Assembly (NCBI RefSeq): GCF_000179035.2
Contig: NC_015155.1
Coordinates: forward strand, 558,001 to 622,000
DNA length: 64,000 nt
Reading direction: 5' to 3'
From: Mycoplasma suis str. Illinois
Lineage (GTDB): Bacteria; Bacillota_I; Bacilli_A; Mycoplasmatales; Mycoplasmoidaceae
In this document: one piece after another, positions 199-57,488 of the stretch
Numbering within the stretch: the stretch's first letter is position 1
Layout of the letters: each line of letters begins with the position of its first letter
Translations under genes and position numbers: made by a program
The notes under the pieces: model-generated
Told to the model about the DNA's origin: nothing
Seen by the model: the letters and a program-made list of their open reading frames with translations, nothing else
The model's database searches: none

Positions 199-1422
199 TT
201 ATAACTCTTTCAAGATCTTTGACCCACATCTGAAACCCATTACCATAGTATGCTCTGGCCTTAGATCTTCATGTCTTGTTCCTTTGAATGGTTCTTTCAT
301 TAGTCATTGACAGTTACCTTCACTACTCTTTGTCCCTAATCCAAATCTCTTTTTGAGCTTGTCTCATTCCTGATCATTCAACCATTTACCACTTTTGCCT
401 TTACCTTCTCCCTCATCTCCCACTACACAGTCATTACTTTTTCTGTTTGCCTCCGGATCATTTCTAGTATTTCACTGTTTTATACTACTACAGCTTTGAT
501 CAGCTAATTTACCTTCTCATCGAGCAGCTTTTAGTCAATCACCTGCAGTTACTTGTCTTTTTCTTTCTCTAGCTTCCCCAAATATATCTGAACCATTACC
601 CTCTTTTTCAAAAGCTAATAATTCTCCATTACCTCCTCCCCCAAATTCAAAGACCTGTCCTTCAATTACTTTGATATTCCCGCTAGTGCTTCATTCTCTT
701 ACATAATCATTTCCCTCTTTTCCATATTTACTCCTTCCACTTTTACAATGAGCACTCTTAAACTCTTCTCTTACTTCCTTCATAACATTACTCCCATTTC
801 TTCCAAAATTGTTCTCCTTTCACCTAGTCCCCTCTCCACACAAATCATCAATATTCTTTCTCTTAAAACTTTTTTCAGCCCATGTCTTCTCATCAGCAAA
901 TACTTTCTTAAAGATACTTAAGGCATCTCCTTTCTTATCTTCTTTCAACTTTCATTTGCATTTTTTTCTCTTATAGTCGTAATTATCCTGTCCATTATTC
1001 TCTCCCACCCTCTCAGTAACTTCTAAACAACTTCCCTCTCCTCCATTATCTTTTTCAAATCATTTACTTCACTTACTTTTAAACTCTTCCTCTTTTCCAC
1101 TACTCCCATTTCCTTTAACCATTTCAATTAACGCCATAACAAAGCTAACCTTACCAACCATTATCCCTCAACCATTTTTCTGTAAACCAATCTTCTCCTT
1201 TCCTATTCTTCGTTGAAATGCTGTACCTTCACTTCCACCTTCTCCATTTCCTGTAACTTTTTTACATCCATATGCATATCCAGTGGTATCCAAATAGACA
1301 CAGTCCTTTTCAACTTTCCCATCACCTCCATTTCCATTCTCATAACTCACACTGACTCCCCAATCAATATCGTCAAATCAGATCCCTTGAACCTTCTCGA
1401 ACTTACTTTCGGAATCAAGCAT
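199..1422 (-). CDS. tandem paralog family, copy 1 (unknown function)
   Basis: A 407-residue protein when UGA is read as Trp. The N-terminus (MLDSESKFEKVQGIWFDDID) and the tail (NCQWLMKEPF, then DLRPEHTMVMGF) are shared with five neighbours downstream in coordinates. A central Lys/Glu-rich stretch carries KCKWKLK. No signal peptide or membrane segment is visible at this start. The ATG was chosen because it is common to all copies; the frame upstream of it has no start codon. A GC-rich hairpin lies about 40 bases upstream. Family function is not recognised; expansion in tandem suggests a host-facing or antigenic role, which is inference. Uniform codon pattern with the neighbouring copies. Confidence 0.75.
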
Positions 1423-1459
1423 GGCCTTGGTTCCGGTCCCGTCGCCATCATTGCTGAAT

Positions 1460-1474
1460 CGCTGCGTGGCAGCG
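1460..1474 (-). repeat. conserved GC-rich hairpin upstream of copy 1
   Basis: CGCTGC and GCAGCG arms with a 3-base loop, 38 bases upstream of the copy 1 ATG. Equivalent hairpins precede every other copy of the family. Confidence 0.6.
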
Positions 1475-1495
1475 ATTTCAACAATTACAAAAACT

Positions 1496-2770
1496 TTAGA
1501 TTTTTCTTAAGTGAGAAAAAAGAAAGAAGGGGTGTTGATTTCAAACAAATTTTTTAAAAAAGAACACATTTAATGTTTGCGGATAAAAATGGGTTTCATA
1601 TATTTTGAAACCCATTACCATAGTATGTTCTGGTCTTAGATCTTCATGATCTTTTCCATTAAATGGTTCTTTCATCAGTCATTGACAGTTTCCTTCCTTA
1701 CTATTTTTTCCAAATCCAAACTTCTTTTTAAGATCGTTTCAATCTTGATCATTCAATCATTTACCACCTTCTCCATTATCTCTATTCTTTACACATTGAT
1801 TATTGTCCTCATCTACTCCACTATTCCGAGTTTTTCACTGTTCAACACTACTACAACTTTGATCTGCTAACTTACCATCTCAGCGAGCCGACTTAAGTCA
1901 GTCGCTCGCTGATATTTGATTCCTTCCCACATCTCTCCCTCTTTCTCCGAAAATATCTTCTCCAGAACCCATTTTCTCGAAGGAAAGTAGTTCTGAATTC
2001 CTCTTCTCCCCTTTTTTCCCAAATTCGAACACTTGACCTTCAATTACCTTTATTTTTCCATTTACATCTCAGTTATCTACATATCCCCCTTTTTCTCCGT
2101 ACCTACTCCCTTCTCCACTACAATGTGTTTCTTTGAACTCGCTCCTCACCTCATCCATAACATTTCCTCCACCTTTTCCAAATTTATCTGCTTTCCACTT
2201 ATTGTCATCTTTACACAACCCATCTATATGATTTTTCTCAAAACTTTTTGTAGCTCAACTTTTCTCATCAGCAAAAACTTTCTTAAAAACCTCTAAAGCT
2301 TCTCCTCTTTTTTCACTTTTTAGCTTTCACTTACACTTCTTTTTTGTATATTCGTGATTTCTTCCTCCACTCTTTTCAGTAACCTTCAAACAACTTTCTC
2401 CACTATCTTTCTCAAATCATTTTCCTCATTTCTTTTCAAACCCCTCACTACTACCTCCATTCTTCTTAACCATTTCAATCAGCCCAATAACAAAAGACAC
2501 TTTTCCAACCATTATTCCTCATCCATTTTTTTGTAACCCAATCTTCTCTTTACCTAATCTTTGCTGGAAAGCAGTTCCATTATTCCCATTTCCATCTTTT
2601 TCTAACCTTCTGCAACCATACGCATATCCGTTTACTAAATAAACACAATCATTTTCAGCTTTTCCCTCTCCATTCTCTCCCATTGTTTCATAACCCACCT
2701 CAACACCTCAATCAATGTCGTCAAATCAAATCCCCTCAACTTTTTCAAACTTACTAGCGGAATCAAGCAT
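1496..2770 (-). CDS. tandem paralog family, copy 2 (unknown function)
   Basis: A 424-residue member of the six-copy family, open from the shared ATG (MLDSESKFEKV...) to a TAA at 1496-1498. The conserved tail DLRPEHTMVMGF is followed by about 35 extra residues not seen in copy 1, reading to just upstream of the copy 1 leader. KCKWKLK-like and FADEK blocks match the other copies, which is why I regard this frame as the real one. No signal peptide or domain is recognised. The gap to copy 1 is 73 bases and carries the conserved hairpin, so each copy could have its own leader. Confidence 0.75.
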
Positions 2771-2792
2771 AGCTTTGGTTCCGGTTCTTATT

Positions 2793-2806
2793 CGCTGCAA
2801 CGCAGC
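2793..2806 (-). repeat. conserved GC-rich hairpin upstream of copy 2
   Basis: GCTGC and GCAGC arms around a 3-base loop, about 25 bases upstream of the copy 2 start codon; matches the hairpins of the other copies. Confidence 0.55.
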
Positions 2807-2842
2807 TATGAAAATTGTTTATCTACATATTTTTATAAGTGA

Positions 2843-2932
2843 CTAATGAAAGAACCATTTAAAGGATCGGGACATGAAAATCTAAGACCAGAACATACTA
2901 TGGTAATGGGTTTCAAATGGTTCCTTCATTAG
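2843..2932. repeat. inverted 3'-end segment flanked by inverted repeats
   Basis: The 18-base arms at 2843-2860 and 2915-2932 are inverted repeats with one mismatch (core CTAATGAAAGAACC). The sequence between them is the reverse complement of what copies 5 and 6 have at the same place. In those copies the minus strand encodes DLRPEHTMVMGF; here that coding sense lies on the plus strand and copy 3 instead ends in ETHYHSMFWS. This is direct evidence of a past local inversion. Confidence 0.75.
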
Positions 2933-4072
2933 TCATTGGCAGTTATCTTCACTACTTTTCGCTCCTAATCCAAATCATCCCTTTAGGTTTTCCCAGCTTT
3001 GATCATTAAGCCATTTACCCCCACCATCACCACCCTCTGTAGCTTCATCTTTAACACATTGATTGCTACTTGTGCTTGCTTCCTTATGATTCCTTGTATT
3101 TCACTGTTTTACACTATGACAACTTTGATCAGCTCTACTACCACCCCATCTAGCAAGTTTTAGCCAGTCACCAGCTGTTATATTATTGCTTTTCCCCTGT
3201 CTCTTTCCATTTTCTGCTTTCTCAAAGACCTCTTTTCCATCACCCTCCTTTTCGAAAGCTAAGTATTCTATGCTTTCTTTATTTCCGAATCCAAAAACTT
3301 CACCCTCAATTACTTTGATATTGTTGCTTGCACCTCAATCTTTAACGTAATTACTATTTCCTTTTTCATATTTACTTTTTCCTTCGCTACAATGTGCCTC
3401 TTCAAACCCTCTTCTTACTTCTTCCATTACATCCTTTCCATTATTCCCGAAACTATCTTCCTGTCACCTACTGCCTCCTTTCTCACACAACCCCTCTATA
3501 TGTTCTCTTGTGAAACTTTTTTCAGCTCATGTTTTTTCATCAGCAAATACTTTTTTAAAGATTTCTAAAGCATCTCCTCTTTTATTACTTCTTAATCTTC
3601 ACTTACATTTCTTCTTTTTGTATTCATATTCCTTACTACTACTTTCTGCCCCCTTTTCTTTGTTTTTATTTTCAGTAACTTCCAAACAACTTTGATTATC
3701 TCCATTCTCCACCTCAAATCACTCATTTCACTTACTTTTAAAGTCTTCACTGTTTTTATTCCCTACTCTACTTTTAACCATTTCAATTAATGCAACAGCG
3801 AATCCAACCTTACCAATCATTACTCCTCATCCAGTATTTATCAACTTAACTTTTTCTTTACCAATCCGTCTTTGAAATGCTGCTCCACTTCCTCCATCAC
3901 CCTTTCCTGTAATTTTTTTGCAACCTCGAGCATAACCACTTGTTAAATACACACAACCTTTTTCAGCTTGTCCACTACTCCCTACCATTTCATAACCCTC
4001 TGTGACACCTCAATCGATATCGTCAAATCAGATCCCTTGAACCTTCTCGAACTTACTTTCGGAATCAAGCAT
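2882..4072 (-). CDS. tandem paralog family, copy 3 with inverted 3' end
   Basis: A 396-residue member of the six-copy family, open from the shared ATG. It matches the others up to NCQWLMKEPF; then an inverted 62-base segment replaces the usual tail, so the protein ends ETHYHSMFWS and stops at TAG. A TAG lies in frame 11 codons before the ATG, which fixes the start, and an AAGGA-like ribosome site precedes it. Function unknown; no membrane segment seen. The altered tail could be one of two alternative C-termini if the inversion is reversible. Confidence 0.75.
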
Positions 4073-4094
4073 TGCCTTGGTTCCTTGTCCAATA

Positions 4095-4109
4095 CGCTGC
4101 TAAGCAGCG
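4095..4109 (-). repeat. conserved GC-rich hairpin upstream of copy 3
   Basis: CGCTGC and GCAGCG arms, 3-base loop, 23 bases upstream of the copy 3 ATG. Confidence 0.6.
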
Positions 4110-4135
4110 CTTAAATAATGATTATTTACATACCA

Positions 4136-5326
4136 CTATAGATGACTACTAATAAAGAAGTCATCTTTAAATTTTTTTCTATCCCTAGGATCCTCTCTAT
4201 CTTTCTTTCTCATTAGTCATTGACATTTATTATTCTCACTTTTCTTATTGAATCCAAATTTTCTCTTTATGCTCTCCCAGTTCTGATTATTAAGTCATTT
4301 CCCACCTTGTTCTCCATCCCCCTGATTATTATCTTTAGCACATTGATTATCCTCTGCTCCAATACCACTTTCCTTAGTTCGTCATTGTTCAACACTATGA
4401 CAACTCTGTTCTCCCAAGAGACCCTCCCATCTCGCAATTTTTAGTCAATCACCAGCTGATACTTGTCCTTTTTCCCTATCTCTTCCAAAAATTTCTTCTC
4501 CAGTACCTTCTTTTTCAAAAGCTAGTATTTCTCCGCCACTTCCCTTTCCAAACTCAAATACTTCACCTTCAATTACTTTTAGATCTCCTGTAACCTCTCA
4601 ATTTTTTACGTAATCATTATCATTTCCACTTCTTCATGATGCTCCATTCCTTCTACAAACCCCTTCCTCAAATTTTCTTTTCACTTTTCCCATTACATTC
4701 CCATAGTTCCCAAAATTATCTGTATTTCACCCACTACTACCCCCATCTTCACACAATTTCTTTAAATCACTAACTTTAAAACTCTTCTTAGCTCAGCCTT
4801 GTTCATCAGCAAATACTTTTTTAAAAGTACTCAATACTTGTCCCTTCTTTTCCTCTTTTAGTTTTCATTTACACTTCTTTTTCTTATAGCTTTCTTTTAC
4901 TTCTTCACCTCTTTCTTTTTCTTCAATAACATCTAGACAATTTTTTTCGTTACTCCTTACCTCTTCAAATCAATCCTTTCACTGCTCTTTAAAGTCCCTT
5001 CTATCTCCATTTCCACCTTTAACTAGCTCAATCAACCCCATAACAAAACCAACTTGACCGACCATCAATCCTCAACCAGTTTTCTTTAACTTATTACGCT
5101 CTTTACCAAGCCTTCTTTGGAAGGCCGTTCCCTGCTCCCCTCCCTGTCTCCCATTTTCAACAACTTTTTTACAACCACGCGCATACCCACCACTGAGTAA
5201 ATACACACAACCGTTATCAGCCTTTTCACTACCCTGAACACTCCTATAACTTACATTTACACCCCAATCAATGTCATCAAATCAAATACCTTGGACTTTT
5301 TCAAATTTACTCTCGGAATCAAGCAT
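4136..5326 (-). CDS. tandem paralog family, copy 4 (unknown function)
   Basis: A 396-residue member of the six-copy family, open from the shared ATG (MLDSESKFEKVQGI) to a TAG at 4136-4138. The body matches the other copies (KKKCKWKLKEE, FADEQG, IEG, AGDWLK, CQWLMR), but the conserved DLRPEHTMVMGF tail is missing: after CQWLM the protein ends in a charged, unrelated stretch rich in Arg, Lys and Asp. This may be another outcome of rearrangement at the variable 3' end. Function unknown. Confidence 0.7.
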
Positions 5327-5345
5327 CGCCTTGGTTCCGTTAATT

Positions 5346-5360
5346 CGCTGCCACGCAGCG
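5346..5360 (-). repeat. conserved GC-rich hairpin upstream of copy 4
   Basis: CGCTGC and GCAGCG-type arms about 20 bases upstream of the copy 4 ATG. Confidence 0.55.
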
Positions 5361-5372
5361 ATCTCACAATAT

Positions 5373-6634
5373 TTACCTACATATTTCGTTATTAGTAATT
5401 AATGAAAGAACCAAACCGAAATCCATTACCATAGTATGCTCTGGCCTTAGATCTTCATGTCCTGATCCTTTGAATGGTTCTTTCATTAGTCATTGGCAGT
5501 TATCGTTTTTACTCTTTTTCTTAAGTCCAAATCTTTTTTGAATATTGTCTCAACTTTGATCATTTAGTCATTTTCCACTGTTATCACCCTCTTTCTGCAC
5601 TTCATTCTTAGTACATTGATTAGTTCCTGAATTTGCTCCCTTGTGATCTCGTGTCTCTCATTGCTCGACACTATTACAACTTTGATCACCTAGATTACCC
5701 TCTCATCTAGCAAGTTTTAGTCAATCACCAGCAGTCACTCTATTTGTTCCTCCGCTTCCTTCTCTTTCTGTTCCGAAGATATCTTGACCTTCACCCATTT
5801 TTTCGAAAGCTAAAACTTCACCTCTTTCTTTTCCCCCAAATTCAAATACCTGACCCTCAATTACCTTGAAATTACCGTTTGTATCTCAGTTACTTATATA
5901 TTCATTCTCCCTTCCATTCTCATAGTTTCCTTTATTGGTGTTACAAACTCTTTCCATGAAATTATTCCTTACTTTTTCCATAACCCCTGCACCATTCTTT
6001 CCAAAATTGTTTGCCTGCCACTTACTACTATCCCCCTTACACAATTCCTTAATATCTTCTCTCTTAAAACTTTTCTTAGCTCACATTTTTTCATCAGCAA
6101 ACACCTTTTTAAGAGCACTCAATACTTCACTTTTTTTGCCATTCTTCAACTTTCATTTACATTTTTTTTCTTATATGTATATTCTTCTTCCTCTCTTTCT
6201 TGTTTTCTCTCCTCATCTGTTCTGTAAGTGACATCTAAGCAGTTATCTTCCTCCTTGCCTTCTTCAAACCATTCCCCTCATTTTTCTTCAAAATTGCCAC
6301 TCCTTTCATTCTCTTGACCTTTAACCAGCTCAATTAAACCCATAACAAAACCAGCTTTACCAATCATTAGTCCTCATCCATTTTTCTGTAATTTAGCTTT
6401 CTCCTTACCTACCCTAAGTTGAAATGATGTCCATTCCTTTTCACTACTTCCCGCCCTCACCTTTCCACTCACTTTCTTACAACCATACGCATATCTTCCA
6501 GAAATATATACACAATTTTCTTCAATATTCTCCTCATTACTTCCCGCATTACTATAACTCACATCAACACCTCAATCAATGTCGTCAAACCAAATACCTT
6601 GAACTTTCTCAAATTTACTTTCGGAATCAAGCAT
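5373..6634 (-). pseudogene. tandem paralog family, copy 5, frameshifted at an A8 run
   Basis: Starts with the shared MLDSESKFEKVQGI and reads normally to the KCKWKLK block. There the coding strand has eight A (plus 6162-6169) where the reading frame needs six or nine; the downstream homology (FADEKMWAKKSF, AGDWLK, CQWLMKEPF, RPEHTMVMDF) continues in another frame to a TAA at 5373. The span is 1262 bases, not a multiple of three. It may be a dead copy, a slippage-switched copy, or a sequencing error in the run. The tail is in the standard orientation and is flanked by inverted repeats like those in copy 3. Confidence 0.7.
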
Positions 6635-6671
6635 CGCCTTGGTTCCGGTCCCGTCGCCATCATTGCTGAAT

Positions 6672-6689
6672 CGCTGCCTCAGCGCAGCG
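6672..6689 (-). repeat. conserved GC-rich hairpin upstream of copy 5
   Basis: CGCTGC and GCAGCG arms with a 6-base loop, 38 bases upstream of the copy 5 ATG. Confidence 0.55.
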
Positions 6690-6702
6690 TTCTAGCAATA
6701 AT

Positions 6703-7664
6703 TTACATGCGCATATTGTTGAGGGTGATTAATGAAAGAACCTCCAATCTGAAACCCATTACCATAGTATGCTCTGGTCTTAGATCTTCATGTCCTCTCC
6801 CAGTAAATGGCTCTTTCATTAGTCATTGACATTCATTCTTTTCGCTCTTTTTACCGAACCCAAATTTTTTCTTAATATCCTCTCAGCTCTGATCGTGTAA
6901 TCATTTGTTGCTCTTCTTTTCATTACCTCCTTCGCTACTCAAGCAATCATTCCTGCTATTCTTAGCTCCCGCATCAAATCTAGTATTTCACTGTTCTACA
7001 CTGCTACAGCTTTGATCACTCATCTTACCATCTCAACGAGCTGATTTAAGTCAGTCACCTGGTGATACTCCTCTACCTCCCGTTTCCCCTTTTTCTTCTC
7101 CTCCAAAAATATCTTGACCCTCGCCTTCCCTTTCGAAAGCTAATAGTTCTCCATTATTACTTCTTCCTTTCCCAAATTCAAATACCTGACCTTCAATCAC
7201 TTTTATGCTTCCATTAGTATCTCAGTTTTCAACATACCCTTCTTCCTTTCAACTTTTTCCTCCGCAAACATTACTAATGAACTTATTTTTTACCGCCCCC
7301 ATCATCTCCTTATTCCCTTTCTCTTGTTACTAAAACCCTCTTCACCATTCCCATCTCCCTTAACCATTTCAATCAATCCTACAACAAAAGACACTTTACC
7401 GACCATTATCCCTCAACCATTATCTTGTAATGCAATTTTTTCCTTACCTATTCTTCGCTGAAATGCCGTACCCTGACTATCGTTTCCAATCCTCTCATTC
7501 ACTTTTTTGCACCCATATGCATACCCACTGCTATCCAAATAGACACAATCATTTTCAGCTTTTTCATTATTCCCTACCCTGTCATAACTTACATCAACAC
7601 CCCAATCAATGTCATCAAATCAAATACCTTGGACTTTTTCAAATTTACTCTCGGAATCAAGCAT
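6703..7664 (-). pseudogene. tandem paralog family, copy 6, internally deleted
   Basis: The shared N-terminus and a normal tail (CQWLMKEPF, DLRPEHTMVMGF) are present, but the middle, including the KCKWKLK and FADEK blocks, is missing: about 240 bases are deleted near 7310-7330 and the two halves are in different frames (962-base span). In the N-terminal frame a TAA follows soon after the junction. This is a remnant or a donor copy. The first copy of the array in the transcription direction. Confidence 0.7.
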
Positions 7665-8064: not shown

Positions 8065-15996
<7,932 letters not shown>

Positions 15997-23525: not shown

Positions 23526-25398
<1,873 letters not shown>

Positions 25399-25483: not shown

Positions 25484-27532
25484 ATGATCAAGAGATATGA
25501 AGTCCCACAACTTGAACATATTTTCTCAGAAAATTCCAAATATAAAAGGTGGTCTATTCTTGAGAAAGAAATACTATATTCTCTAGCTAGAAGATTTTCT
25601 ATCTCCGACAAGGAGATAGCAAAACTAGAACTAGAATGACCAGAAATTCCAAGCTATGAAGTAGTAGCTGAGGAAATGAAAACTCAGCACGACTTTGTAG
25701 CTTTCCTTAGATTACTAGAGAGAAAGCTGGGTGGAAACCCAGCTTCTAAATATATACATTATGGAATTACTAGTTCAGATATCATAGATAGCTCTAATTC
25801 ATTAGCTCTTAGGGAAGCTAATAAATTACTTATAAAAGAAATAGAGAGTCTGCAAGACACTCTATATAAATTAGCTAATGAATATAGAGACTTTATTCAA
25901 GTAGGTAGAACACATGGTAGACATGCAGAACCTACATCTTTTGGATATAGGTTCGCAATAACCTACCAAGAATTAGAGTCAGCTCTTGAAAGTCTCTATA
26001 TATCTAGAAGATATTTAGAAGTAATTAGTATTAAGGGATCTACAGGTACATATGCACATATTGGACCTGAAGTCCAAGAAGAATTATCTTCTAGATTTGG
26101 ACTATATACTATTTCGGGATCTACACAAGCTCTACCTAGAAATAGATATTCTTCTTATATTTATTCCCTCTCTCATATAGGTTCTATTATTAACTCTTTA
26201 TCTCTTACTCTAAGAACCTTTATGAGAGAAGAAATAAATGAAATAGAAATACTTAAACCTAAAGATAGTGTGGGTTCTTCTTCTATGCCGCACAAACTTA
26301 ATCCAGTAGAGTTAGAAAACATTACTGGATTAACTAAGTGACTAGATAGTCTCTCTTCTCTAGCTAAAGACAATAACTTTTTGTGAGAAGAAAGAGATAT
26401 TAGTCACTCTTCTAATGAGAGAATGAGCTTAATGGATGCTCCTATTCTCGCATTCAATATTGTTGCTAGAATGCACAAATTCCTTAAGAAGATAAAAGCC
26501 AATTCTGAAGGTATTTCTAAAAACCTTCAGTTAACTAATGGGCTTATATCTTCTCAAAGTATTCTCCTAAAACTTATAGAATCTTCTTCTATAAGTACAA
26601 GAGAAGAAGCTCATACACTTCTTTCTTCTCTTTCTAAAGAAGTAAAAGATGGGAACTTCCCATCTTTATGAGAAGCTATTCAATCTTCTCCTATAAAGAA
26701 ACTTCTTTCCAATAAAGATTGAGAAGATTGCTTCAATCTAGAGAGACATTTAAGAGAACTTCCAAAGATTTATAGTCAAATCTTTGGAAAGAAGATTCAA
26801 ACAAAATCTTTCTCTAAGCAATTATTTAATAAATATGAAGTAGAAAATATTATCTACTTCTTAGCTCAGAGACTTAACTGATATTATTCCCAGAATAATA
26901 TCTCTGGAGAAGAACAAACTCCTATATTAGTAATTTCTCTAATAGAAGGTTCTTCTATGTTTGCTGGGAAAATTATTTCCCAGCTATCTTTCCCATTTGT
27001 ATTCTGTTCTCTATATCATTCAATGTCTAGTTATGTTAAGGGCTTTAAAGAGTCCGAAGGGACTCAAACTTTTGAAGAGTTCATATATAGAGAGCTGAAT
27101 AAGAGAAAAGACTTTCAACGAATTAGAAAGTTAATTGAAAAACATCCTCGAATTCTTATTCTTGAAGGAGTAGTTGAAAGTAAGTCAACACTAACTAACT
27201 TATATGATTCCCTATCAAAAATAGAGGGAATCCAAGAAATAAAGACTGTATCTCTATTTAAAAAAGTGTTGAATGGGAGTCACGATAGTGACTCCTTCAC
27301 TGATTACTACAAGAAATCTTTATTCTCTAAAGATTTCAGGGGAAAACAAGAAGGACTAATACAAAGAGAAATGAATTGAAATGATAGAGAGTTAGTTAAA
27401 CAAATAAATAGTAAGCAAGTAACTAATTGAGTAGGTGAGATCATTAAAGTTAATAAGGACGAATGAATAGTGGGATCTGGAATGGATTTACATGGACAAC
27501 ATAGAGGAGTAGAAGGAGTTTGAGTAATTTAA
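25484..27532 (+). CDS. purB: adenylosuccinate lyase fused to an HPRT-like domain
   Basis: A 682-residue protein in one frame. Residues 1 to about 430 are adenylosuccinate lyase: RTHGRHAEPTSFG and the signature SSSMPHKLNPVELENI. This domain releases fumarate from adenylosuccinate to give AMP. From about residue 445 the sequence resembles hypoxanthine phosphoribosyltransferase: TPILVISLIEGSSMFAGKII, then HPRILILEGVVESKSTL, then EWIVGSGMDLHGQHRGVEGV near the end. HPRT makes IMP from hypoxanthine, two steps upstream in AMP salvage. The PRPP loop is degenerate: EDIIDTG of the family reads EGVVESK (residues 561-567), so catalysis by this domain is doubtful. I read every codon between the domains and found no stop. 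Confidence 0.85.
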
Positions 27533-27551: not shown

Positions 27552-27983
27552 ATGAATATAGCTATTACTGTTCCTTTACTACTTCTGGCGGGGGGGGGCG
27601 TAGGTTTTTCTACCCAAGTCGCAAGACATTGGGTAAGGGGAGATAGTTGATTTGAAAGAAAAAAACATGGTATGCAAATGGATACCAAGAATGGGGAAAA
27701 ATTAGTAGTTAATGAAACTAATGTTGTACTTATGGGTAACGGTTGAGAAGGATTCGCAACCGAACTTGAAAGAGTACTAAAAAGTAATGGAGATGTACAA
27801 GAAATTACTGTTATTGGAAAAATTGGTGAAGGACAAGAAACACTTTGTAGACTAGGACAAGGAGAACAACAAGTCCGTGCAACGGGCTTGTGAGATAAAG
27901 ATATTGTTTGAACTGGAAACATTAATCAAAAGGGTGTTTCTTGTTTCAAACAAGGATCTAATTCAAATTCTTTAAGTAAATAA
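27552..27983 (+). CDS. small surface-like protein A1 with in-frame G9 tract
   Basis: A 143-residue protein with an N-terminal hydrophobic segment MNIAITVPLLLLAGGGVGFS, likely an uncleaved signal or membrane anchor. The rest is soluble, with GNGWEGFATELERVL, IGKIGEGQETLCRLG and VSCFKQ shared with A2. The three glycines of the anchor are encoded within a run of nine G (27590-27598); the frame is open, so this copy is on. B1 starts three bases after the stop. Function unknown. Confidence 0.75.
27590..27598 (+). repeat. G9 homopolymer inside A1
   Basis: Nine G at codons 13-16 of A1, in frame. The paralog A2 encodes the same Gly residues with a mixed GGAGGGGG sequence. Confidence 0.9.
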
Positions 27984-48091: not shown

Positions 48092-48948
48092 TTAGGAAGA
48101 AGAAGGTTCTGGCTTAGAAGAACTTTCATCATAAACATAGTTAGCTCATTTAATTGCATTTCTAGTTATGCTGTAAGGTTGTTTATTTTGTTGATTATCT
48201 CCTTCTCCATTATTTTGCTTCTTCATTTGTTCTCTTTTTAATTTTCCAGCTACATTCAAGAAAGCTAGAAACTTCAAAGTTTCTTTAATTCTTTCTTGTA
48301 ACTTATTTTCCATATTTTTTATAGATCTTTCTATAGATTCTCATTCTCATTTCCATTGACTTATATCTATTAGGGTGCTACCTAATAGATAAAAAACTGA
48401 ACCTATTTCAACCTTAAATACATCTCTATAGGCAAAATGACAAATTATTCAAAAACCATTGAAGAAATCTCTTCAATTGGTTTTTACTTGCTGCTGACTA
48501 TCTTGACTTTGTCCATTAGAAGAGTTCTGACTCTTCAATAATTGTTCCTGTTCTTCAGGAATCACACTTTGTCATTCTTTATTTTTCAATTTTTTGATAG
48601 TAGTGAATAATTCTTTAAAACTTTTAACTGTTCCTTTTGCAGATGATTTAGTAAATGATCAAACAATTTCTCAAATGCTCTCTAATTTACTTCAAATTGA
48701 GAACTCTTGTTGTTGAGAAGAAGAGGCTTCGGCCCCTTCTTCTTGAGGCTTAGAAGTTTCTGAAGGAAATCACTCTCTTAAGAGATCTAGAAATTGAAAT
48801 AATGGTTTAGAAAGATCTTGAGTTAAAAATTCTCTTGTTAGTGCGCTTGCCGCTAAACCCCCCCCGCGATAGCTCCGCAAGTAATATAAAGCCTATTGGG
48901 AGTTAAAAAACTCCCAATTAAATGTCTATTTATTGATAAGTTCTTCAA
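48092..48948 (-). pseudogene. poly-G array copy P1, off (G8)
   Basis: Member of the ten-copy family. N-terminal frame from TTG at 48948 reads LYITCGAIAGG up to a run of eight G (plus C at 48858-48865), then hits TAG. With nine G it would read IAGGGLAASALTREFLTQD and stay open to 48092 (NAIKWANYVYDESSSKPEPS). The N-terminus before residue 20 differs from the MFWKLQTK start of other copies. Listed as off rather than dead: the span is one base short of 286 codons. Confidence 0.7.
48858..48865 (-). repeat. G8 tract of P1
   Basis: Eight G on the coding strand; out of frame by minus one. Confidence 0.9.
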
Positions 48949-49030
48949 AAAATTAAATGCTTTTAATGTTCATATAACCTTTTATCATTTAATTTTCTTA
49001 TTGTCCCTTTTCAGGAACAATGATAAGAAT

Positions 49031-49851
49031 TTATTGTTTTTGAGATTGTGAATTATCCAATCAAACATAATTTGCCCACTTCATATTATTTCTAGTTAAT
49101 TTAATTTTTTCTGGTTTTGGATCTTGATTTTTAGTTTTTAATTCTCCCCTCTTCTTTTCTCCCAATATTTTTAGAGAAACTAAAAACTTTAAAGTAGACT
49201 TCAAACTTTCTTCAAGTCTACTTTCTATATTCTTTAAGGATTCTTGTATTTTCTCTCAATCTCATCAATCTCATTTACCTGCATCTATGATTGTTCACCA
49301 AATTAGAGAAAATACAGATCCGAATTCCACTTCAAATACATCTCTGTATTGGAAGTGACACAAAACTCATAAACCATTAAATAAATCCCTTCAATCTACT
49401 TTTTGCTGTTGTGAGTCACTTTGTTGCAATTCATTTTGTTGATTTTGCTGATCAGGAATCATCTCTTTTCATTTCCAGTTTTTATCTTTTAACTTTCAAA
49501 GTGATTTACCTAAATCAACAAAACTCTTGAGAAATCCCATAATAAATGTTTTGAGAATTTCATAAGCTCTTGTGGAGACAGTAACAATTTTTTGATAAAA
49601 ACTACTTTCTTGAGGAGGCGGTGCCTCCTCTTCTGGTTTAAGAACTACAGCAGGAGTTGAAGGAAATCATTCCTTTAGTTTTCCTACAAAACTACTAAAT
49701 GTACTAGAGAGATCTTGTGTTAAAGACTCTCTAGTTACAAGACTAGTTGTTAAGCCCCCCCCGCAATCACTAACGAAGAATACAAAAGTCTTTTATTGGC
49801 TGTTAAGCCTATAGACCATAACCTAGTAGTTGTTTGTAATTTTCTAAACAT
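49031..49851 (-). pseudogene. poly-G array copy P2, off (G8)
   Basis: Starts MFRKLQTTTRLWSIGLTANK and reaches YSSLVIAGG at the G run (plus C at 49755-49762). With eight G the next codons are GCT TAA; with nine they would be GGC TTA ACA, continuing to NNMKWANYVWLDNSQSQKQ. The span of 821 bases is one short of a full frame. The body is Gln-rich with conserved blocks WRDLFNGLWVL-like and FRYRDVFEVEFGS shared in the family. Confidence 0.72.
49755..49762 (-). repeat. G8 tract of P2
   Basis: Eight G on the coding strand; out of frame by minus one. Confidence 0.9.
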
Positions 49852-49857
49852 TAATTA

Positions 49858-50629
49858 CTAAGAAGTACTAGGTTCTGGTTTACTTCTATCTAGTTCAACT
49901 CATTGAGATCCAACACCATATCACAAAATATTTCTTTTTGTGATATTTATAGGAGTTCTTCCATGTAAATTACTTGATTTACTCATTTGCTTTCCAGTTT
50001 CATTTAACTGTATCAATATACCTAATAATCCTAAAAATCCTTTCTCAAATCTTTGCTTAAAACTTTCATAAATTTCAGAGATCTTTTCTACTTTTCATTC
50101 TCACTTCTCTAAATCTAGAAATAAACCAGCCAGTAAATAAGGTAGAGTGCCAAACTCTACCTTAAATACATTTCTATAAGAAAAATGGCAAAGAATTCAA
50201 ATTCCATTAAAAAAATCTCTTCAATTTACTTCTGGTAATTGAGTTTGTTGTTTTTCTTGCAATTCTTTAGCTTGTGAAGAAAAACTAGCCAAACTTTTTA
50301 AATCACTTTGAAAAGTTTTGACTCATTGTTCAAAAAAATCTTTGACAATTTTGAAAAGTGATTGAAATTTATTTGAAATAACTTCAAAAGCTCCTTGCTG
50401 TTGTGCAGATGGTTCAGGAACAGATTGTACTTGCGGGGAAGACTTAAATCATTCTGAAAATTTTCCCCCAATATAAGATAGGGCGTTAGAAATATGTTGT
50501 TGGGAGATTTCACTCCCAACAACGCTAACTAAAGCGCCCCCCCCCGCAATGATTCCACAAGTAGTATAAAGTTGGTTCTTAGTTTAAGGAACCACCTAAC
50601 CAAAACTTAGTTTGTAGTTTTCAAAACAT
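49858..50629 (-). pseudogene. poly-G array copy P3, G9 but frameshifted upstream
   Basis: The G run has nine G, which joins CGIIAGGGALVSVVGSE to the long downstream frame (ending VELDRSKPEPSTS). However, in the N-terminal part the sequence CTTAAACTAAG has one more base than the CTTTAACTAAG of the intact copy P10, and a TAA results at codon 17. So this copy is off for a different reason than its neighbours. The span is 772 bases, one more than a multiple of three. Six bases separate it from P2. Confidence 0.68.
50537..50545 (-). repeat. G9 tract of P3
   Basis: Nine G on the coding strand, the length that is in frame in P5 and P10. Confidence 0.9.
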
Positions 50630-50637
50630 ACTAATTA

Positions 50638-51433
50638 CTATTTTTCTTTTTCGTCTCCTCCCAAATTAACTCATTTCATGGCATAAGTAGATCATCAAAT
50701 GTTTCTTCCATTAATTGGGATTAAGTTTGTGTACTTGAAAGGAAATGATCCATTACTTGAATCTCCCAATGACTTTAACTTTCTCATACTTTTACCAACT
50801 ATATCAAGTTGTATAAGTATAGAAAGAAATCCAGCTAATGATTTTTCAAATCTTCTATTTTCATTAAATTTTTCAAAAGCTTCTAAAAAGCTTTTTTTAT
50901 TTCATTCTCATTTACTGATATCAACTAATAGTCCAGCCAATAAATGAAGTAAAGTTCCAAACTTTACTTGAAAAACATCTCTATAAGAAAAATGGCATAG
51001 AATGAACAATCCATTAAAAAATACCTTTCAATCTATATTTGGTATATTGACATCTTGTTGTTGCTGTTGAATTTCATAGGGAGAAAACTTTCCAATATCT
51101 TTTAAATCTTGTTGTAATTTTTTAACTCACACAACAAAAAATTCTTTAATTGTTGATCAAATAGATTCAAAACCTCCCCTAATTGTTTCTCAGGCTCTTT
51201 GTCCTCCTTGTTGAGATTGAGGCTGAACAATTTCTTGAGGTGAAGACTTAAATCATTCAGAGAATTTATTTCCAATGAATGATAAGGCATTGGAAACATG
51301 TCCATAAGTTGCTTCGCTTCCGACAACACTGACTAAAGCGCCCCCCCCACGCAATGGTGGCGCAAGCCACATATAAGTTAGTTTTGGAAAGAGTTCCTCC
51401 CAATCAAAACTTAGTTTGTAATTTTCAAAACAT
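50638..51433 (-). pseudogene. poly-G array copy P4, off (T-interrupted tract, +1)
   Basis: Starts MFWKLQTKFWLGGTLSKTNLY and reaches VACATIAW at a tract that reads GCG T then eight G. Relative to the intact copies this is one base too many, and the following frame is not the family's. The family frame resumes with GALVSVVGSEATYGHVSNAL and ends KWVNLGGDEKEK at TAG 50638-50640. The tract looks like a ten-G run in which one G became T. Span 796 bases. Confidence 0.68.
51341..51348 (-). repeat. G8 tract of P4, preceded by T
   Basis: Eight G on the coding strand with GCGT in front; out of frame by plus one. Confidence 0.88.
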
Positions 51434-51446
51434 TATTAATTAATAA

Positions 51447-52253
51447 TTATTTCTTTTCTGTTGAATCTAGTACTCATTGCAATGAATAAGCTGCTCACTG
51501 AAGATTTCTTCCATCAACAGGAATCAATGTTGAGTGATAGAAAGGTGAGTATTGTTGATGATTTTGATCTCCTTGAGAAGACATTTTTGTCTTAATTTCT
51601 CTAGTAAATTTCCCAATCATATCTAACTGAATTAACATAGACAAAAATCCAGCTAAAGCTTTTTCAAATCTTTTTTCTTGATTGAAATTCTTATAAGCCT
51701 TCAAGAAAGATTCTTTGCTTCATTTCCGTTGACTTATTTCTTTAGTATCCATCAATAGACCTAGAAGTAGATAAAACAAAGTTCCAAACTTTACTTGAAA
51801 TACATCTCTGTACATGAAATGGCAAAGAGTGAAAAGACCATTGAAGAAAACCCTTCATTCTATGGAAGGTATAGTAATTTCTTGGGGTTGTTGACCATTT
51901 TTAGAATAGAGATTTCCTAAATCTTTTAAATCTTTTTGCATACTTTTAACTCAAGTTTCAAAAAATTCTTTAACTGTTGAATATATTCCTGTGAAAACTC
52001 CAGTAAAGTTTTCTCATGAAACTTGATTATTTGTTTGTTGTTGGGGTGCCGAAGATTGCTCTGTCGATTTAAATCATTCAGAGAATTTCCCTCCAACATA
52101 GGAAAATGCATTAGAAACATGTTGGTGAAATATTTCTGAGCCAGCAACACTGACTAAAGCGCCCCCCCCCGCGATGGTGGCGCAAGTAGTGTAAAGTTGG
52201 CTTTTAGTTAAAGTTCCACCTAATCAAAACTTGGTTTGTAATTTTCAGAACAT
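51447..52253 (-). CDS. poly-G array copy P5, on (G9)
   Basis: A complete 268-residue protein. MFWKLQTKFWLGGTLTKSQL leads into a hydrophobic Gly/Ala/Val segment (residues ~21-40, YTTCATIAGGGALVSVAGSE) that probably spans or anchors in the membrane. The remainder is helical and polar, with WFKS, a Gln/Asn-rich part, IPSIEWRVFFNGLFTLCHFM, YRDVFQVKFGTLFYLLLGLL and a Trp-rich end (WAAYSLQWVLDS). The nine-G run at residues ~29-31 keeps the frame open, and I read it to the stop. Function unknown; this is one of two copies of ten that are open. Confidence 0.75.
52162..52170 (-). repeat. G9 tract of P5 (in frame)
   Basis: Nine G on the coding strand; the gene is open. Confidence 0.9.
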
Positions 52254-52335
52254 GATTTATTACTTAACTTCTATTTAATTAAATATTTATTATTCTCTCT
52301 GCCCTTAAAGAACAGACAAATAATAACTTAAATTT

Positions 52336-53135
52336 CTATTTTTCTTCTGGAGAACTTAAAGCTTCAGGAGCTATTCAACTTAAACCTAAAGCAAAATTCT
52401 TTAGGTTTCTTCTAACTAATTTAATTTTTGTATTTGAATGTTGACTTTGATCTTGTTGAATTTGTCCTTTACTTTTCATTCTCATTCCTTTTCCTGTTGC
52501 GCTCAATTGAGCTAAAAAAATTAATAAGTTTTTAAGGTTTGGTTGAAATTTCTTTTCCAAATTCTCTCAAGCATCAGAGAAAGATTTCCTCTCTCATTTT
52601 CAATCTTGTATGCTATCGAGAAATAAATCTTTCATTAAGTAAAGAAATGTAAAAGATTCCACTTCAAATATGTCTGCATATTTGAATCCAAAAAGAATTC
52701 AAACACCATTAAAAAATTCTCTTCAATCAATATCTAATTTTTGGTTGCTTTGATCGGGAAGTGAACTTCCTCTCCGACCGGAAATTAAATCTTGTCAGAA
52801 CTTATGTTCTGACTTGATGAGCATAACAATTCCTTTAAGAAATGTTTCTGTTCAACTCCACACAGACTCTAATTTTTCTTTTAAGTTTCCTCAAATGTTT
52901 ATGTTTTGTTGTTGAGTTTCTGGAGCTGCCTGAACGGCAGCTGTAGAAGGTTTAAATCAACTTACAAAAGTACTGAAAGCTTGTTGTACTGCTCCAGATA
53001 TCTGATAAGTTGTAACTTCAGAGCCAACAACACTAATTAAAGCGCCCCCCCCGCAATGGTGGCACAAGCCACATATAAGTTAGTTTTGGAAAGAGTTCCC
53101 CCTAATCAGAACTTTGTTTGTAGTTTTCAAAACAT
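52336..53135 (-). pseudogene. poly-G array copy P6, off (G8)
   Basis: Starts MFWKLQTKFW and reaches CATIAGG at eight G (plus C at 53045-53052), followed by GCG CTT TAA. With nine G it would continue ALISVVGSEVTTYQISGAV and end LGLSWIAPEALSSPEEK. Span 800 bases, one short of a full frame. Shares WRDFFNGVWILFGFK-type and FLLFLAQLSATGKGM blocks with P7. It lies directly downstream of three cysteine-rich genes. Confidence 0.72.
53045..53052 (-). repeat. G8 tract of P6
   Basis: Eight G on the coding strand; out of frame by minus one. Confidence 0.9.
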
Positions 53136-53153
53136 TTTGAAAACTAGATTATT

Positions 53154-53444
53154 CTATTTTGGGCAACAACAGCAGCACTTTACACTTCCACTAGTACAAG
53201 TTGTTCCATCTTTGCAACAACACTTACCTCCTTCACAATTTTGACAACAACTAGAATCTCCATCAGTACATTTACACTGTTGTCCATCTTCTTGACAACA
53301 TTGACAATCTCCTGAAGGTAAACAACTTACTTCTTCATTTTGGTTTCCATTTTTATTTACTAAGTAATAAGTTAGATATCCTCCGCCGCCTCCAGCAGAT
53401 AACAAAGAAAGAATAATAAGAGGTATCTTAATTCCCTTAAGCAT
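53154..53444 (-). CDS. cysteine-rich secreted-like protein (C1)
   Basis: 96 residues. MLKGIKIPLIILSLLSAGGG is a signal or anchor sequence followed by GGYLTYYLVNKNGN; from residue ~40 the protein is packed with Cys pairs and runs (CLPSGDCQCCQEDGQQCKC, SSCCQNCEGGKCCCKD, KCCCCCPK). The Gly run is encoded by mixed codons, not a pure G tract. Sits in the poly-G array 16 to 18 bases from its neighbours, so it is cotranscribed. Unknown function; metal binding is a guess. Confidence 0.72.
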   Translation of the reverse strand: MLKGIKIPLIILSLLSAGGGGGYLTYYLVNKNGNQNEEVSCLPSGDCQCCQEDGQQCKCTDGDSSCCQNCEGGKCCCKDGTTCTSGSVKCCCCCPK

Positions 53445-53460
53445 ACCTCTTATTTATTAA

Positions 53461-53781
53461 TTATTCTGCTGCTTTACAGCAACAGTTTTCTTCAGAGCAA
53501 GTTTCTCCTGTTTTGCAACAGCAACAACATTTTTGCCCACTAGGACAAGAATCATTTTTACAACACTTTTGATGTCCTTCGGGACATTGACATTCCACTC
53601 CAGCTTCTGTACAACACTTACATTGACCTTCCGAAGAACAAGTATTTGTTGTTGAAGTAGAAGAGGAACTACTACTTTCAGTTCCAGTTTTCGTGAAATG
53701 ATATGTTAAATAGCCACCTCCGCCACCAACAGAAAGTATGGAAAAAACAATTAAAGGAATCTTTATTGCTGCTTTTAACAT
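53461..53781 (-). CDS. cysteine-rich secreted-like protein (C2)
   Basis: 106 residues, paralog of C1: anchor MLKAAIKIPLIVFSILSVGG, GGGYLTYHFTK, a short Ser/Thr linker, then repeated Cys clusters (CSSEGQCKCCTEAGVECQC, CCKNDSCPSGQKCCCCC, CSEENCCCK). Gly codons are mixed. It starts 20 bases after C3 and ends 16 bases before C1. Confidence 0.72.
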   Translation of the reverse strand: MLKAAIKIPLIVFSILSVGGGGGYLTYHFTKTGTESSSSSSTSTTNTCSSEGQCKCCTEAGVECQCPEGHQKCCKNDSCPSGQKCCCCCKTGETCSEENCCCKAAE

Positions 53782-53801
53782 TCTTATTTAGTTGTTGAAG
53801 C

Positions 53802-54089
53802 CTATTTAGTAGGCTTACAACAACATTTACCGTCTGCGCAATCTGTTCCTTCGGTGCAGCAACAACAACACTGCCCCTCAGGGCAGGGTTCTTTACAACA
53901 CTCTTTAGATCCTTCTGTACATTGACACTGACCTTCTACACAACATTTACAGCTTTCAGAAGGAACACATTTAGATTTTTCTTGATCTCCTGAAGTTTGA
54001 GAACTTAGACTATATGCTCAATATCCCCCCCCGCCAGCAGCAGACAATATAGGAATAACTATGAGAGGAATCTTAATTATTCATCTCAT
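53802..54089 (-). CDS. cysteine-rich secreted-like protein (C3), on (G8)
   Basis: 95 residues, paralog of C1 and C2: MRWIIKIPLIVIPILSAAGG anchor, GGYWAYSLSS, then Cys clusters (CVPSESCKCCVEGQCQC, CCKEPCPEGQCCCCC, DGKCCCKPTK). Here the Gly segment is a pure run of eight G (plus C at 54025-54032), which is the in-frame length for this gene, so it is on but able to slip. Confidence 0.68.
54025..54032 (-). repeat. G8 tract of C3 (in frame)
   Basis: Eight G after GGC on the coding strand; in frame. Confidence 0.88.
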
Positions 54090-54129
54090 AGTTATCTAAA
54101 TATATCTATTAGTTTTATTTGAAAAATTT

Positions 54130-54914
54130 TTATTTGGAAACCCCTTCTTCTTGAGGTATCCACTCAACTGATTTGGCGAATTGTTTTAAGTTATGAGAAG
54201 TTAATTTGATTTTTCTTCCATTACTTCCTCCTGAATTATTTATATTTTGAATACTTAATCTTTTTCCTTCCATACTAATTTGAGCCAAAAATATCAATAA
54301 ACTTTTTAAACCTTTAGGAAATTTTTCCTGAAAATTATTTCAAGCTTCAGTAAAAGATTTCTTTTCTCACTTTCAAGTTTCATAGTTATGTATGAATAGA
54401 CTTCCAGATAATTTCAAGAATGTAAAAGAATCTATTTCAAATAAATTTCTATATTTAAGTCCTCAAAGAATTCACAAACCATTGAAGAATTCTCTTCAAT
54501 CTATATTTACGTTCTGAAGAGAAGTCCCTTCTTGTTGTTGAACTTGTTGTCTATTTGTGATTATTTTCTTTCAGAACTCATGTTCTTTTTTAGCGAATGC
54601 TGCAAAAATTTCTCAAATACTTTTGCCTCATTCATAAATTCCACTAAATTTGTTTCCAATATTTTCAAATAATCCTGTGCTTGACTGTTGTTCTTGAGAT
54701 TCTTGCTGAACAACTTGTTGTGAATTGGGCTTAAATCAACCAATGAAGGTTGAAAAAGCTTCAACTAGGGGTTTAGATATTTGATTGCCTGAAAATTCAG
54801 CACCAATTAAGCTAACTGTTATGCCCCCCCCGCAATTGCTCCGCATGCGGCATAAAGATTGGTTTTAGAAATGCTTCCTGAAAACCAAAACTTGGTTTGC
54901 AATTTTCAAAACAT
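54130..54914 (-). pseudogene. poly-G array copy P7, off (G8)
   Basis: Starts MFWKLQTKFWFSGSISKTNL and reaches CGAIAGG at eight G (plus C at 54834-54841), then GCA TAA. With nine G it would read GGITVSLIGAEFSGNQISKP and stay open to KQFAKSVEWIPQEEGVSK. Span 785 bases, one short of a full frame. First P copy upstream of the three Cys-rich genes in the transcription direction. Confidence 0.72.
54834..54841 (-). repeat. G8 tract of P7
   Basis: Eight G on the coding strand; out of frame by minus one. Confidence 0.9.
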
Positions 54915-54932
54915 TTTTAAGTTACTAAATAA

Positions 54933-55795
54933 TTATTTTTGAGATTGTTGTTCTTCATCTGTAACTCAATCTGAACCATAACCAAATCACTTCATATTTT
55001 CTCAAGTTATGTGAATTCTAGGATCTTTACTTTTTTCATTATTTGGTTGAGATTGACTTTGTGCATTTTTAATTCTTCCTGATTTTCTTTGTTCTTGACC
55101 AACCTTATTCAATTCAAAAAGGAATAAAAGTAAATTCTTTATTCCTTTTTGAGATCTTGTTCCAATATTTTCAAATCCTAAAGTAATTATTTCAATTCAA
55201 GATTTTTTACCTTCTTGTTCTTCTGGCTTATTTCTTTTATTTATTTCTTCTTTTATCTTTTCAAAATCGATAAAAGTTCCAAATAATAAATAAAAGAAAG
55301 AACCAAACTCTATCCTAAAAATATCTCTGTAGGCAAAGCCTCAGAGAACTCATAGTCCACTAAAGAAATCTCTTCAATCGATTTTTAAATCGTTCGAAGA
55401 AGAAGGTTCTCTTTGGACTTGTTGTTGTCCACTAGATTCAAGAAATTTAGAAAAAAATTTCTTTTCCGCTTCTATTATTTTTTTGATACTTTGAAAAATT
55501 GTTGTAAATCATCCTTTTACTGTTTGAAATTTTTCAGATAAATTTTCTAAAAAATTTCCATTTGATTGAGTTTCTTCTTGCTGGGGAGAAGGTTCAGTAT
55601 TAGTTGGTTTAAATCATCCTACAAAAGTTTCAAAAGCACTTTGAATTTTTGTGGATATCTGTCCACTATTGATGTATTCAGAGCCAACAACACTGACTAA
55701 AGCGCCCCCCCCGCGATGGTGGCGCAAGTCATATAAAGTTGGTTCTTAGTTAAAGAACCTCCTAACCAAAACTTAGTTTGTAGCTTTCAGAACAT
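54933..55795 (-). pseudogene. poly-G array copy P8, off (G8)
   Basis: Starts MFWKLQTKFWLGGSLTKNQL and reaches ATIAGG at eight G (plus C at 55705-55712), then GCG CTT TAG. With nine G it would read GALVSVVGSEYINSGQISTK and stay open to GSDWVTDEEQQSQK. Span 863 bases, one short of a full frame. Closest to P9 and P10 in the N-terminal region. Confidence 0.72.
55705..55712 (-). repeat. G8 tract of P8
   Basis: Eight G on the coding strand; out of frame by minus one. Confidence 0.9.
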
Positions 55796-55813
55796 TTATC
55801 TAAAAAATTATTT

Positions 55814-56658
55814 CTATTGTTGAGCTTCTAGTGCCTCTTGAACTCAATAAGAGCTGTGTCCAAATCATTTCATATTTTCTCAAGTTATTGAAATTCTATT
55901 ATCTTGTTGTTTTCCATTAGTTTGGGGTTGTTGAGGACTTTTTCTTTTTTGTTTTCCTACTTGATTCAATCCAACTAAAAAAATAAGCATATTTTTTATA
56001 CCTTTCTCAGATCTTTGACTTATTTGCTCAAATATCTTAGAAACAACTCTAACTAAATAACTCTTTGGTTGACTTTGATCTTGACCTTCTTGTGGTTGAT
56101 TACTTACTTTCTTTATTTCTTCAAAGTCAACAAAAGAACTAGCAACTAAATAAAAGAAAGATCCGAACTCTATCCTAAACACATCTCTATAGGCAAAACC
56201 TCAGAGAATTCACAAACCATTAAAAAAATCTCTTCAATCTATCTTTATGTTCTGCAGAGAAGAATCTTGTTGTTCAGGTTGACTATTTTGATTTGATTTA
56301 AGAAGTTTTTCTAAGAATTTCTTTTCTGAAAGAAAAACTGTCTTAAATCCCTGAAATATATCTGTAATTCAACTTTTTACTATTTCAAATTTCGAAGATA
56401 TATTCTCAAAAAGATTTCCTAATGATTGTGTTTCTGCCTGTACTACAGGCTCAGAAGAAGTTGTTGTTGGGGCGAATCATCCAACAAAAGTGTCAAAAGC
56501 ACTTTTGATCTGTCGAGATATTTGACCACTATTTATATATTCTGATCCAGCAACACTAACTAATATGCCCCCCCCGCGATAACTCCGCAGGTGGTATAAA
56601 GTTGATTTTTAGTTAAAGCTCCTCCTAATCAGAACTTTGTTTGTAACTTCCAAAACAT
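55814..56658 (-). pseudogene. poly-G array copy P9, off (G8)
   Basis: Starts MFWKLQTKFWLGGALTKNQL and reaches CGVIAGG at eight G (plus C at 56568-56575), then GCA TAT TAG. With nine G it would read GILVSVAGSEYINSGQISRQ and stay open to HSSYWVQEALEAQQ. Span 845 bases, one short of a full frame. The body includes AYRDVFRIEFGSFFYLVASS, shared with the other copies. Confidence 0.72.
56568..56575 (-). repeat. G8 tract of P9
   Basis: Eight G on the coding strand; out of frame by minus one. Confidence 0.9.
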
Positions 56659-56666
56659 TTAAGAAA

Positions 56667-57488
56667 TTATTTACTTTTTGCTTCTTCAGAAACTCAACCA
56701 AAACTGTATCCTAATCACTGCATATTATTTCTAGATAAAGTAATTTTTTGAGATATAGATGAAGGTTGATTTTTATTTTTTTGTTGACCAATTTGATCCA
56801 AGATAGCTAGAAGAACTAAAAAGTCTCTAGCTCCTTTCTCAAATCTAGATCCCATTTCTTTATAAGTTTTCTCAATAGATTGCTTCCATTTATCTCAACT
56901 CAATCTTTGATTTGGAGTTTTTAATCATGTTCACTCTTCTGTCTTAATTAATAAGTTTGACAGTAAATAAAGAAAAGAACCATTTTCTACTGTAAATACA
57001 TCTTTATACATCATTCCTCATAAAGCTAGTATTCCTCTAAAAATACTCTTAAATTCAAATTTCATTTCTTTCATATTTCCAGAAGATTGTTGAGAGTCTT
57101 GTTGTTGTAATTCTTGAGATTTCATCTTTTTTATAGATTCAGAAACATTTTTTCAAGATTGAATCATTGTTTCTGCAATTGTTTTTATGAATGAGAAAAC
57201 ATCTCCTAATTTACTACCTACTTCTGAGAAAAAATTTCCAAAAGAAAAAGGTTGTTGCTCAGATGGTTGTAATTGCTGCTGTTGTTGATCTTGTGTCGGA
57301 GTAAATCAACCAATAAAAGTGTTGAAAGCACCTTTTATTTGGGAGGCAATTTGTCCATTATTTATGTATTCAGAACCAACAACACTGACCAAAATGCCCC
57401 CCCCCGCAATTGTTCCACAAGCAGCATAAAGTTGGTTCTTAGTTAAAGAACCTCCTAACCAAAACTTAGTTTGTAATTTCCAAAACAT
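56667..57488 (-). CDS. poly-G array copy P10, on (G9)
   Basis: A complete 273-residue protein: MFWKLQTKFWLGGSLTKNQL, then the hydrophobic YAACGTIAGGGILVSVVGSE, then GQIASQIKGAFNTFIGW and a Gln-rich helical body, ending LGYSFGWVSEEAKSK. The nine-G run keeps it open. It starts 10 bases after C4 and ends eight bases before P9, at the upstream end of the array, so if one promoter serves the array this copy and P5 are the P proteins made. Function unknown. Confidence 0.76.
57397..57405 (-). repeat. G9 tract of P10 (in frame)
   Basis: Nine G on the coding strand; the gene is open. Confidence 0.9.

Follow-up and report, generated by a model that had tools for sequence, protein, structure and literature searches.

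What does the gene at 25484..27532 do, in which adenylosuccinate lyase (PurB) runs on into a domain resembling hypoxanthine phosphoribosyltransferase (HPRT), and can its second domain still make IMP? The gene lies in the 64,000-nucleotide stretch of the Mycoplasma suis str. Illinois genome analysed here (the window). Hemoplasma genome papers have assumed that IMP is synthesised from hypoxanthine. Guimaraes et al. (2014; PMC3958358) described MSU_0708 of M. suis, almost certainly the gene studied here, as a partial HPRT domain fused to adenylosuccinate lyase and 'likely to exert its function', a reading that agrees with ours and is counted in favour of a working HPRT domain. Their main text gives MSU_0708 one sentence and does not treat its PRPP loop, selection, the PurB-derived halves of its paralogues or a split PurB. 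The fusion itself was known, and it is the way its paralogues share the work that appears to be new. An unfused purA-purB-hpt operon in sister genera and duplication with reciprocal loss in other hemoplasmas are also new here, and the searchable literature yielded no description of reciprocal loss or of a split PurB.

Under translation table 11 the region carries stops throughout, while under genetic code 4 the forward strand is open from 25484 to 27532 for 682 amino acids, with 10 TGA codons read as tryptophan and a TAA stop. The M. suis genome is a single contig of 742,431 bases. Each of the seven genomes examined in the genus carries the fusion without interruption, so it is no sequencing artefact. 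Because no in-frame ATG, GTG or TTG occurs between codons 380 and 491 under code 4, it is unlikely that the HPRT part is also translated on its own from an internal start. The preliminary description had proposed that PurB continues in frame into an HPRT-like domain, subject to the two not being separate polypeptides; the open frame, its conservation and profile matches for both parts confirm a real fusion in a single reading frame. Its divergent neighbour is dnaK (23526..25358, complementary strand), which also adjoins the fusion in five further genomes (M. haemolamae, M. haemominutum and the wenyonii/ovis group), and this shared adjacency supports the orthology of these genes, termed copy A.

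Just 3' of the fusion, a run of about 9-10 G at approximately 27589-27600 lies near the start of an ORF at 27552-27983 and is possibly a phase-variable tract; a related ORF lies further downstream, at 28953. Elsewhere in the window, RpoB and RpoC share one reading frame of 2643 residues (8065-15996, complementary strand), their junction being uninterrupted in 7/7 genomes of the genus and interrupted in most relatives. Paralogous hypothetical proteins are arrayed in tandem at two places (199-7664 and 48092-57488, both on the complementary strand) and probably belong to surface-related families such as have been reported from hemoplasmas. Three small proteins encoded in tandem at 53154-54089 on the complementary strand are rich in cysteine, with CCCC motifs, and have hydrophobic segments at their N-termini.

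The PurB part (residues 1-435; 25484..26788, forward strand) is well defined. Residues 1-433 match NCBIfam TIGR00928 above its equivalog cut-off (335.4 bits against 326.2), the match to B. subtilis PurB (1f1o) has E=1.9e-75, and the corresponding part of the AlphaFold model has the fumarase/ASL-superfamily fold in a Foldseek comparison, with TM values by target of 0.90-0.92 against PDB 1c3c/2pfm (0.92 for 2pfm). Residue alignment places motif c1, HYGITSSD (residues 92-99), at 25757..25780, motif c2, GRTHGRHAE with His144, at 25904..25930, and motif c3, GSSSMPHKLNP with Ser265 and Lys271, at 26273..26305, all on the forward strand; His144 is the equivalent of the catalytic His141 of S. aureus and B. 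subtilis PurB. In the S. aureus enzyme each active site draws on three subunits, with R67, H68, D69, T95, Q212, S306 and R310 from subunit A, H141 from subunit B and R4, Y5 and N276 from subunit C (PMC2917274). For our comparisons S262, K268, N270 and E275 were put in face C and T140 in face B by sequence position. Identity to B. subtilis is then 8/10, 2/2 and 7/7 for faces A, B and C (H68, H141, S262, K268, E275, N276 and others), and the two differences, R67Q and T95S, are also present in other PurBs. As judged from this alignment the PurB part keeps a complete set of catalytic residues, and lyase activity is predicted. It is like the PurB of the Bacillus, Thermotoga and Staphylococcus type (TIGR00928; 1f1o, 1c3c, 2x75) over its whole length, in fold and in catalytic residues, but unlike these enzymes it carries a C-terminal extension with a second enzyme-like domain.

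This extension, residues 440-682 (26801..27529, forward strand), is more divergent. Residues 452-599 match TIGR01203 with E=7.6e-10, and the score of 38.8 bits is far under the equivalog cut-off of 150, which is counted against an active HPRT; the Pfam PF00156 match (18 bits) is likewise under its cut-off. A profile built on this domain in four species aligns with stand-alone Mollicutes HPRTs over the entire domain (hhalign, 97.9% probability, E=3.5e-13), and a profile of nine fusions matches solved HPRTs with values up to E=1.7e-12. In the AlphaFold model of the full-length fusion (pLDDT 78.5, pTM 0.81) the C-terminal part has alternating strands and helices, as in the phosphoribosyltransferase (PRTase) fold. 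Among the best 50 Foldseek matches listed for the full-length model there are only lyases and no HPRT, so the claim to an HPRT fold relies on the profiles and the secondary structure. These point to a class I PRTase fold related to HPRT, in keeping with the relationship put forward in the preliminary description.

Alignment identifies an equivalent of the pyrophosphate loop, SLIEGSS (residues 485-491; 26936..26956), one of the PRPP loop, EGVVESK (residues 561-567; 27164..27184), and a purine-binding tail, WIVGSGMD (residues 661-668; 27464..27487), which is the equivalent of FVVGYGLD and, with a following R, agrees with the pattern [FW][VI]VGxGxD...R; all are on the forward strand. A segment at residues 599-644 (27278..27415, forward strand) has a pLDDT of about 33, aligns as an insertion peculiar to the copies A of this genus, and is probably disordered. 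The domain resembles stand-alone Hpt (TIGR01203) in fold, loop order, purine-binding tail and first PRPP-loop acid, and differs from it in being fused, in having G in place of the second acid and K for the loop glycine, in a flexible loop that is unrecognisable and in the 45-residue insertion. The two substitutions and the failure to recognise the flexible SYG loop in the HPRT-domain alignment are counted against an active HPRT.

The PRPP motif of two adjacent acids followed by [DE][TS]G is thus replaced by EGVVESK, and the loop had been called degenerate by comparison with EDIIDTG. That description stands for D->G, common only to M. suis and M. parvum, and for G->K, found in four hemoplasmas (M. 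suis, M. parvum, M. haemolamae and M. haemominutum), both of which are unusual. It does not stand for the other changes: E likewise takes the place of the catalytic D in stand-alone Mollicutes HPRTs (G027, G028, G031) that score above the family cut-off, and S for T is common among the HPRTs compared. The first acid, the loop T position and the tail WxxGxGxD..R are invariant across the same four species. A literature search for a D134G variant of HPRT found none. The unusual loop and base-pocket residues could also belong to an active PRTase using another base or donor (guanine, xanthine or another ring) in place of hypoxanthine, and the closest single-sequence PDB match is indeed a Giardia guanine PRTase (E=0.005). 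That match is weak, the tail WxxGxGxD that binds purine is conserved and the genomic context hints at no other base, and we consider such a change of substrate improbable.

The content of the genome bears on whether the domain is needed; genome-wide statements on M. suis come from searches and selected stretches. Only three PRTase-type genes are present: a prs-like gene, an upp-like (uracil PRTase-like) gene and the HPRT domain of the fusion. A separate canonical hpt, for which the preliminary description advised a search, is absent from the genome, and searches with TIGR01203, PF00156 and a copy-B profile found no hidden second HPRT. The genes guaB, guaA (adjoining guaB and following it), purA and prs are retained, and since GuaB and PurA use IMP directly, some source of IMP is needed. 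That the cell could import IMP or other nucleotides is counted against an active HPRT.

In a Nei-Gojobori comparison with an M. parvum-like genome, dN/dS is 0.19 (0.09-0.33) in the HPRT part, against 0.11 in PurB, with dS near saturation, which indicates purifying selection on the HPRT domain. The dN of the HPRT part is about twice that of PurB, again with dS near saturation, and this is counted against an active HPRT. A functionless part in the course of decay would account for the low similarity, the altered motif and the low-confidence insertion, but the frame is open in 7/7 genomes, dN/dS is well under 1 and dead segments are unlikely to last in a strongly reduced genome; we regard mere decay as very improbable. 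The strongest argument for a working domain is that copy A decays only where a second HPRT exists. In the four species with no second HPRT, copy A keeps 44, 44, 51 and 50 of 66 HPRT-conserved positions, whereas in the three that have one, the wenyonii/ovis species, it keeps 32, 35 and 28 and has lost the tail. The count for the M. suis domain is on a par with that of the active-looking copy B of other hemoplasmas (42-49).

The main rival is a maintained pseudoenzyme, an HPRT-type domain kept for structure or regulation that steadies the PurB tetramer or senses IMP, PRPP or AMP, with purines obtained by another route. The changed PRPP loop would fit such a role, as would the HPRT parts of copy A in the M. 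haemofelis group, which are without the acidic pair and yet, between M. haemofelis and M. haemocanis, have a dN/dS of 0.015, so that non-canonical domains are evidently maintained. It leaves the M. suis genome with no other purine PRTase even though IMP-using enzymes are kept, and decay with loss of the tail in species with a second HPRT is unexpected for a purely structural part; we hold this alternative to be rather unlikely. The preliminary description had allowed that the domain might be regulatory, altered in substrate or inactive. Selection and the comparison among species oppose plain inactivity and favour an altered HPRT. With no other HPRT, retained users of IMP, purifying selection and the pattern of decay, the domain is probably still the IMP-forming enzyme of the cell, in weakened or altered form.

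The reading we prefer, to which we assign a probability of about 60%, is that the whole fusion is bifunctional and serves purine salvage. The N-terminal part, forming a PurB tetramer, would convert adenylosuccinate to AMP and fumarate, and the C-terminal HPRT-type domain, as the sole purine phosphoribosyltransferase of the genome, would form IMP from hypoxanthine and PRPP, the changed PRPP loop probably lowering or altering the efficiency of this step. IMP could then pass through PurA and PurB to AMP or through GuaB and GuaA to GMP. Catalysis by the HPRT-type domain, its substrate and any channelling are inferred.

The suggestion that the fusion brackets the route from hypoxanthine via IMP and adenylosuccinate to AMP holds, as sister genera have purA, purB and hpt together in one operon. 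Unfused operons of this kind, with abutting or overlapping genes, occur in several of these genera (G012, G013, G047, G050, G099), purA and hpt-like matches likewise flank purB in G015, and the M. suis fusion was probably derived from such an operon. A non-hemoplasma genus (G057) has purA followed by its own purB-hpt fusion (L194, 1363-3207, complementary strand). Because its PurB clusters with unfused PurBs in the tree, that fusion is apparently independent, and fusion probably arose at least twice.

Other hemoplasmas carry additional copies. Guimaraes et al. (2014; PMC3958358) found HPRT confined to few species, M. haemofelis and M. haemocanis among them, and reported two HPRT-annotated M. 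haemofelis proteins of 475-498 amino acids, which by length correspond to our copies C and B. Copy B lies beside guaB in M. wenyonii and M. ovis (G001, G002, G004; L066, L067, L068). The HPRT half of copy B shows loops of the DDILDRG type and a complete tail; its N-terminal half has lost every PurB catalytic motif; the predicted fold of M. haematobovis copy B still matches PurB (2x75, E=5e-10) as well as HPRTs. Selection on copy B is reciprocal, with dN/dS of 0.36-0.46 in the PurB half and 0.07-0.16 in the HPRT half; this paralogue joins an HPRT that looks active to a dead PurB. In the M. haemofelis group, copies A and B are accompanied by a distant copy D at another place in the genome, and M. 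haemofelis and M. haemocanis have in addition copy C, degenerate in both halves, beside A and B. A copy-D query of the M. suis genome matched only the known fusion.

The copies B of both genera form one clade in the HPRT tree (97/98), and the GuaB of the wenyonii/ovis species is 62% identical to that of M. haemocanis and 46% to that of M. suis (tree support 100/100), whereas copy A groups these species with M. suis. This conflict suggests that the guaB/copy-B block probably moved between hemoplasma lineages, the HPRT part of copy A decaying afterwards. An ancient duplication followed by several losses of copy B is the less favoured alternative, the GuaB tree pointing to transfer of the block. 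Guimaraes et al. (2014; PMC3958358) explained the second HPRT of M. wenyonii (WEN_00280) by a transfer involving Babesia equi. Such a source seems to us less likely for copy B: its N-terminal half is derived from PurB and it is shared with the M. haemofelis group, which makes an origin within this mycoplasma family simpler, judged from mycoplasma sequences.

The PurB active site itself seems to be divided between paralogues of the M. haemofelis group. Three species, M. haemofelis, M. haemocanis and M. haematobovis, have a copy A with 7-8/10 positions of face A and 7/7 of face C but 0/2 of face B, the GRTHGxHAE segment being gone. Their copy D retains face B (2/2, within an intact GRTHGxHAEPTSFG), with only 0-3/10 of face A and 0-1/7 of face C. 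Kept positions of copy D are enriched in the face-B segment (Fisher p 3e-3 to 1.5e-5), and the sign is opposite for copy A. In M. haemofelis (G010) copy A lies at C1:99734-101512 and copy D at C1:1080543-1082180, and the pattern recurs in G019 and G039 (L183). The three genomes yielded no intact PurB; those of M. haemofelis and M. haemocanis contain PurA. The complementary loss of faces with no intact PurB suggests that PurB of this group is an obligate heteromer of copies A and D. If the D2 tetramer is assembled as A2D2, with the A chains related by the axis joining faces A and C, two complete sites would result. In the argininosuccinate lyase/fumarase superfamily, active sites formed by three subunits allow differently defective subunits to complement each other within one gene; the M. 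haemofelis group differs in that defects of this complementary kind appear fixed in two paralogous genes. For the overall scheme, in which duplicated fusion copies share out both enzymes (copy A supplying two faces of a heteromeric PurB, copy D the third, THG-containing face, and copy B an HPRT on a dead PurB) while M. suis keeps an undivided bifunctional protein, we judge the chances to be even.

If the single-copy protein of M. suis is bifunctional, one polypeptide would hold both the entry of purines and the step that yields AMP in a blood parasite that cannot be cultured, and this would bear on the parasite's use of hypoxanthine from its host. Reciprocal loss in the wider family amounts to a natural experiment, in which pseudoenzyme halves appear to be retained under strong selection, and it may offer a testable case of a multi-subunit active site divided between two paralogues, both of which would thus be indispensable.
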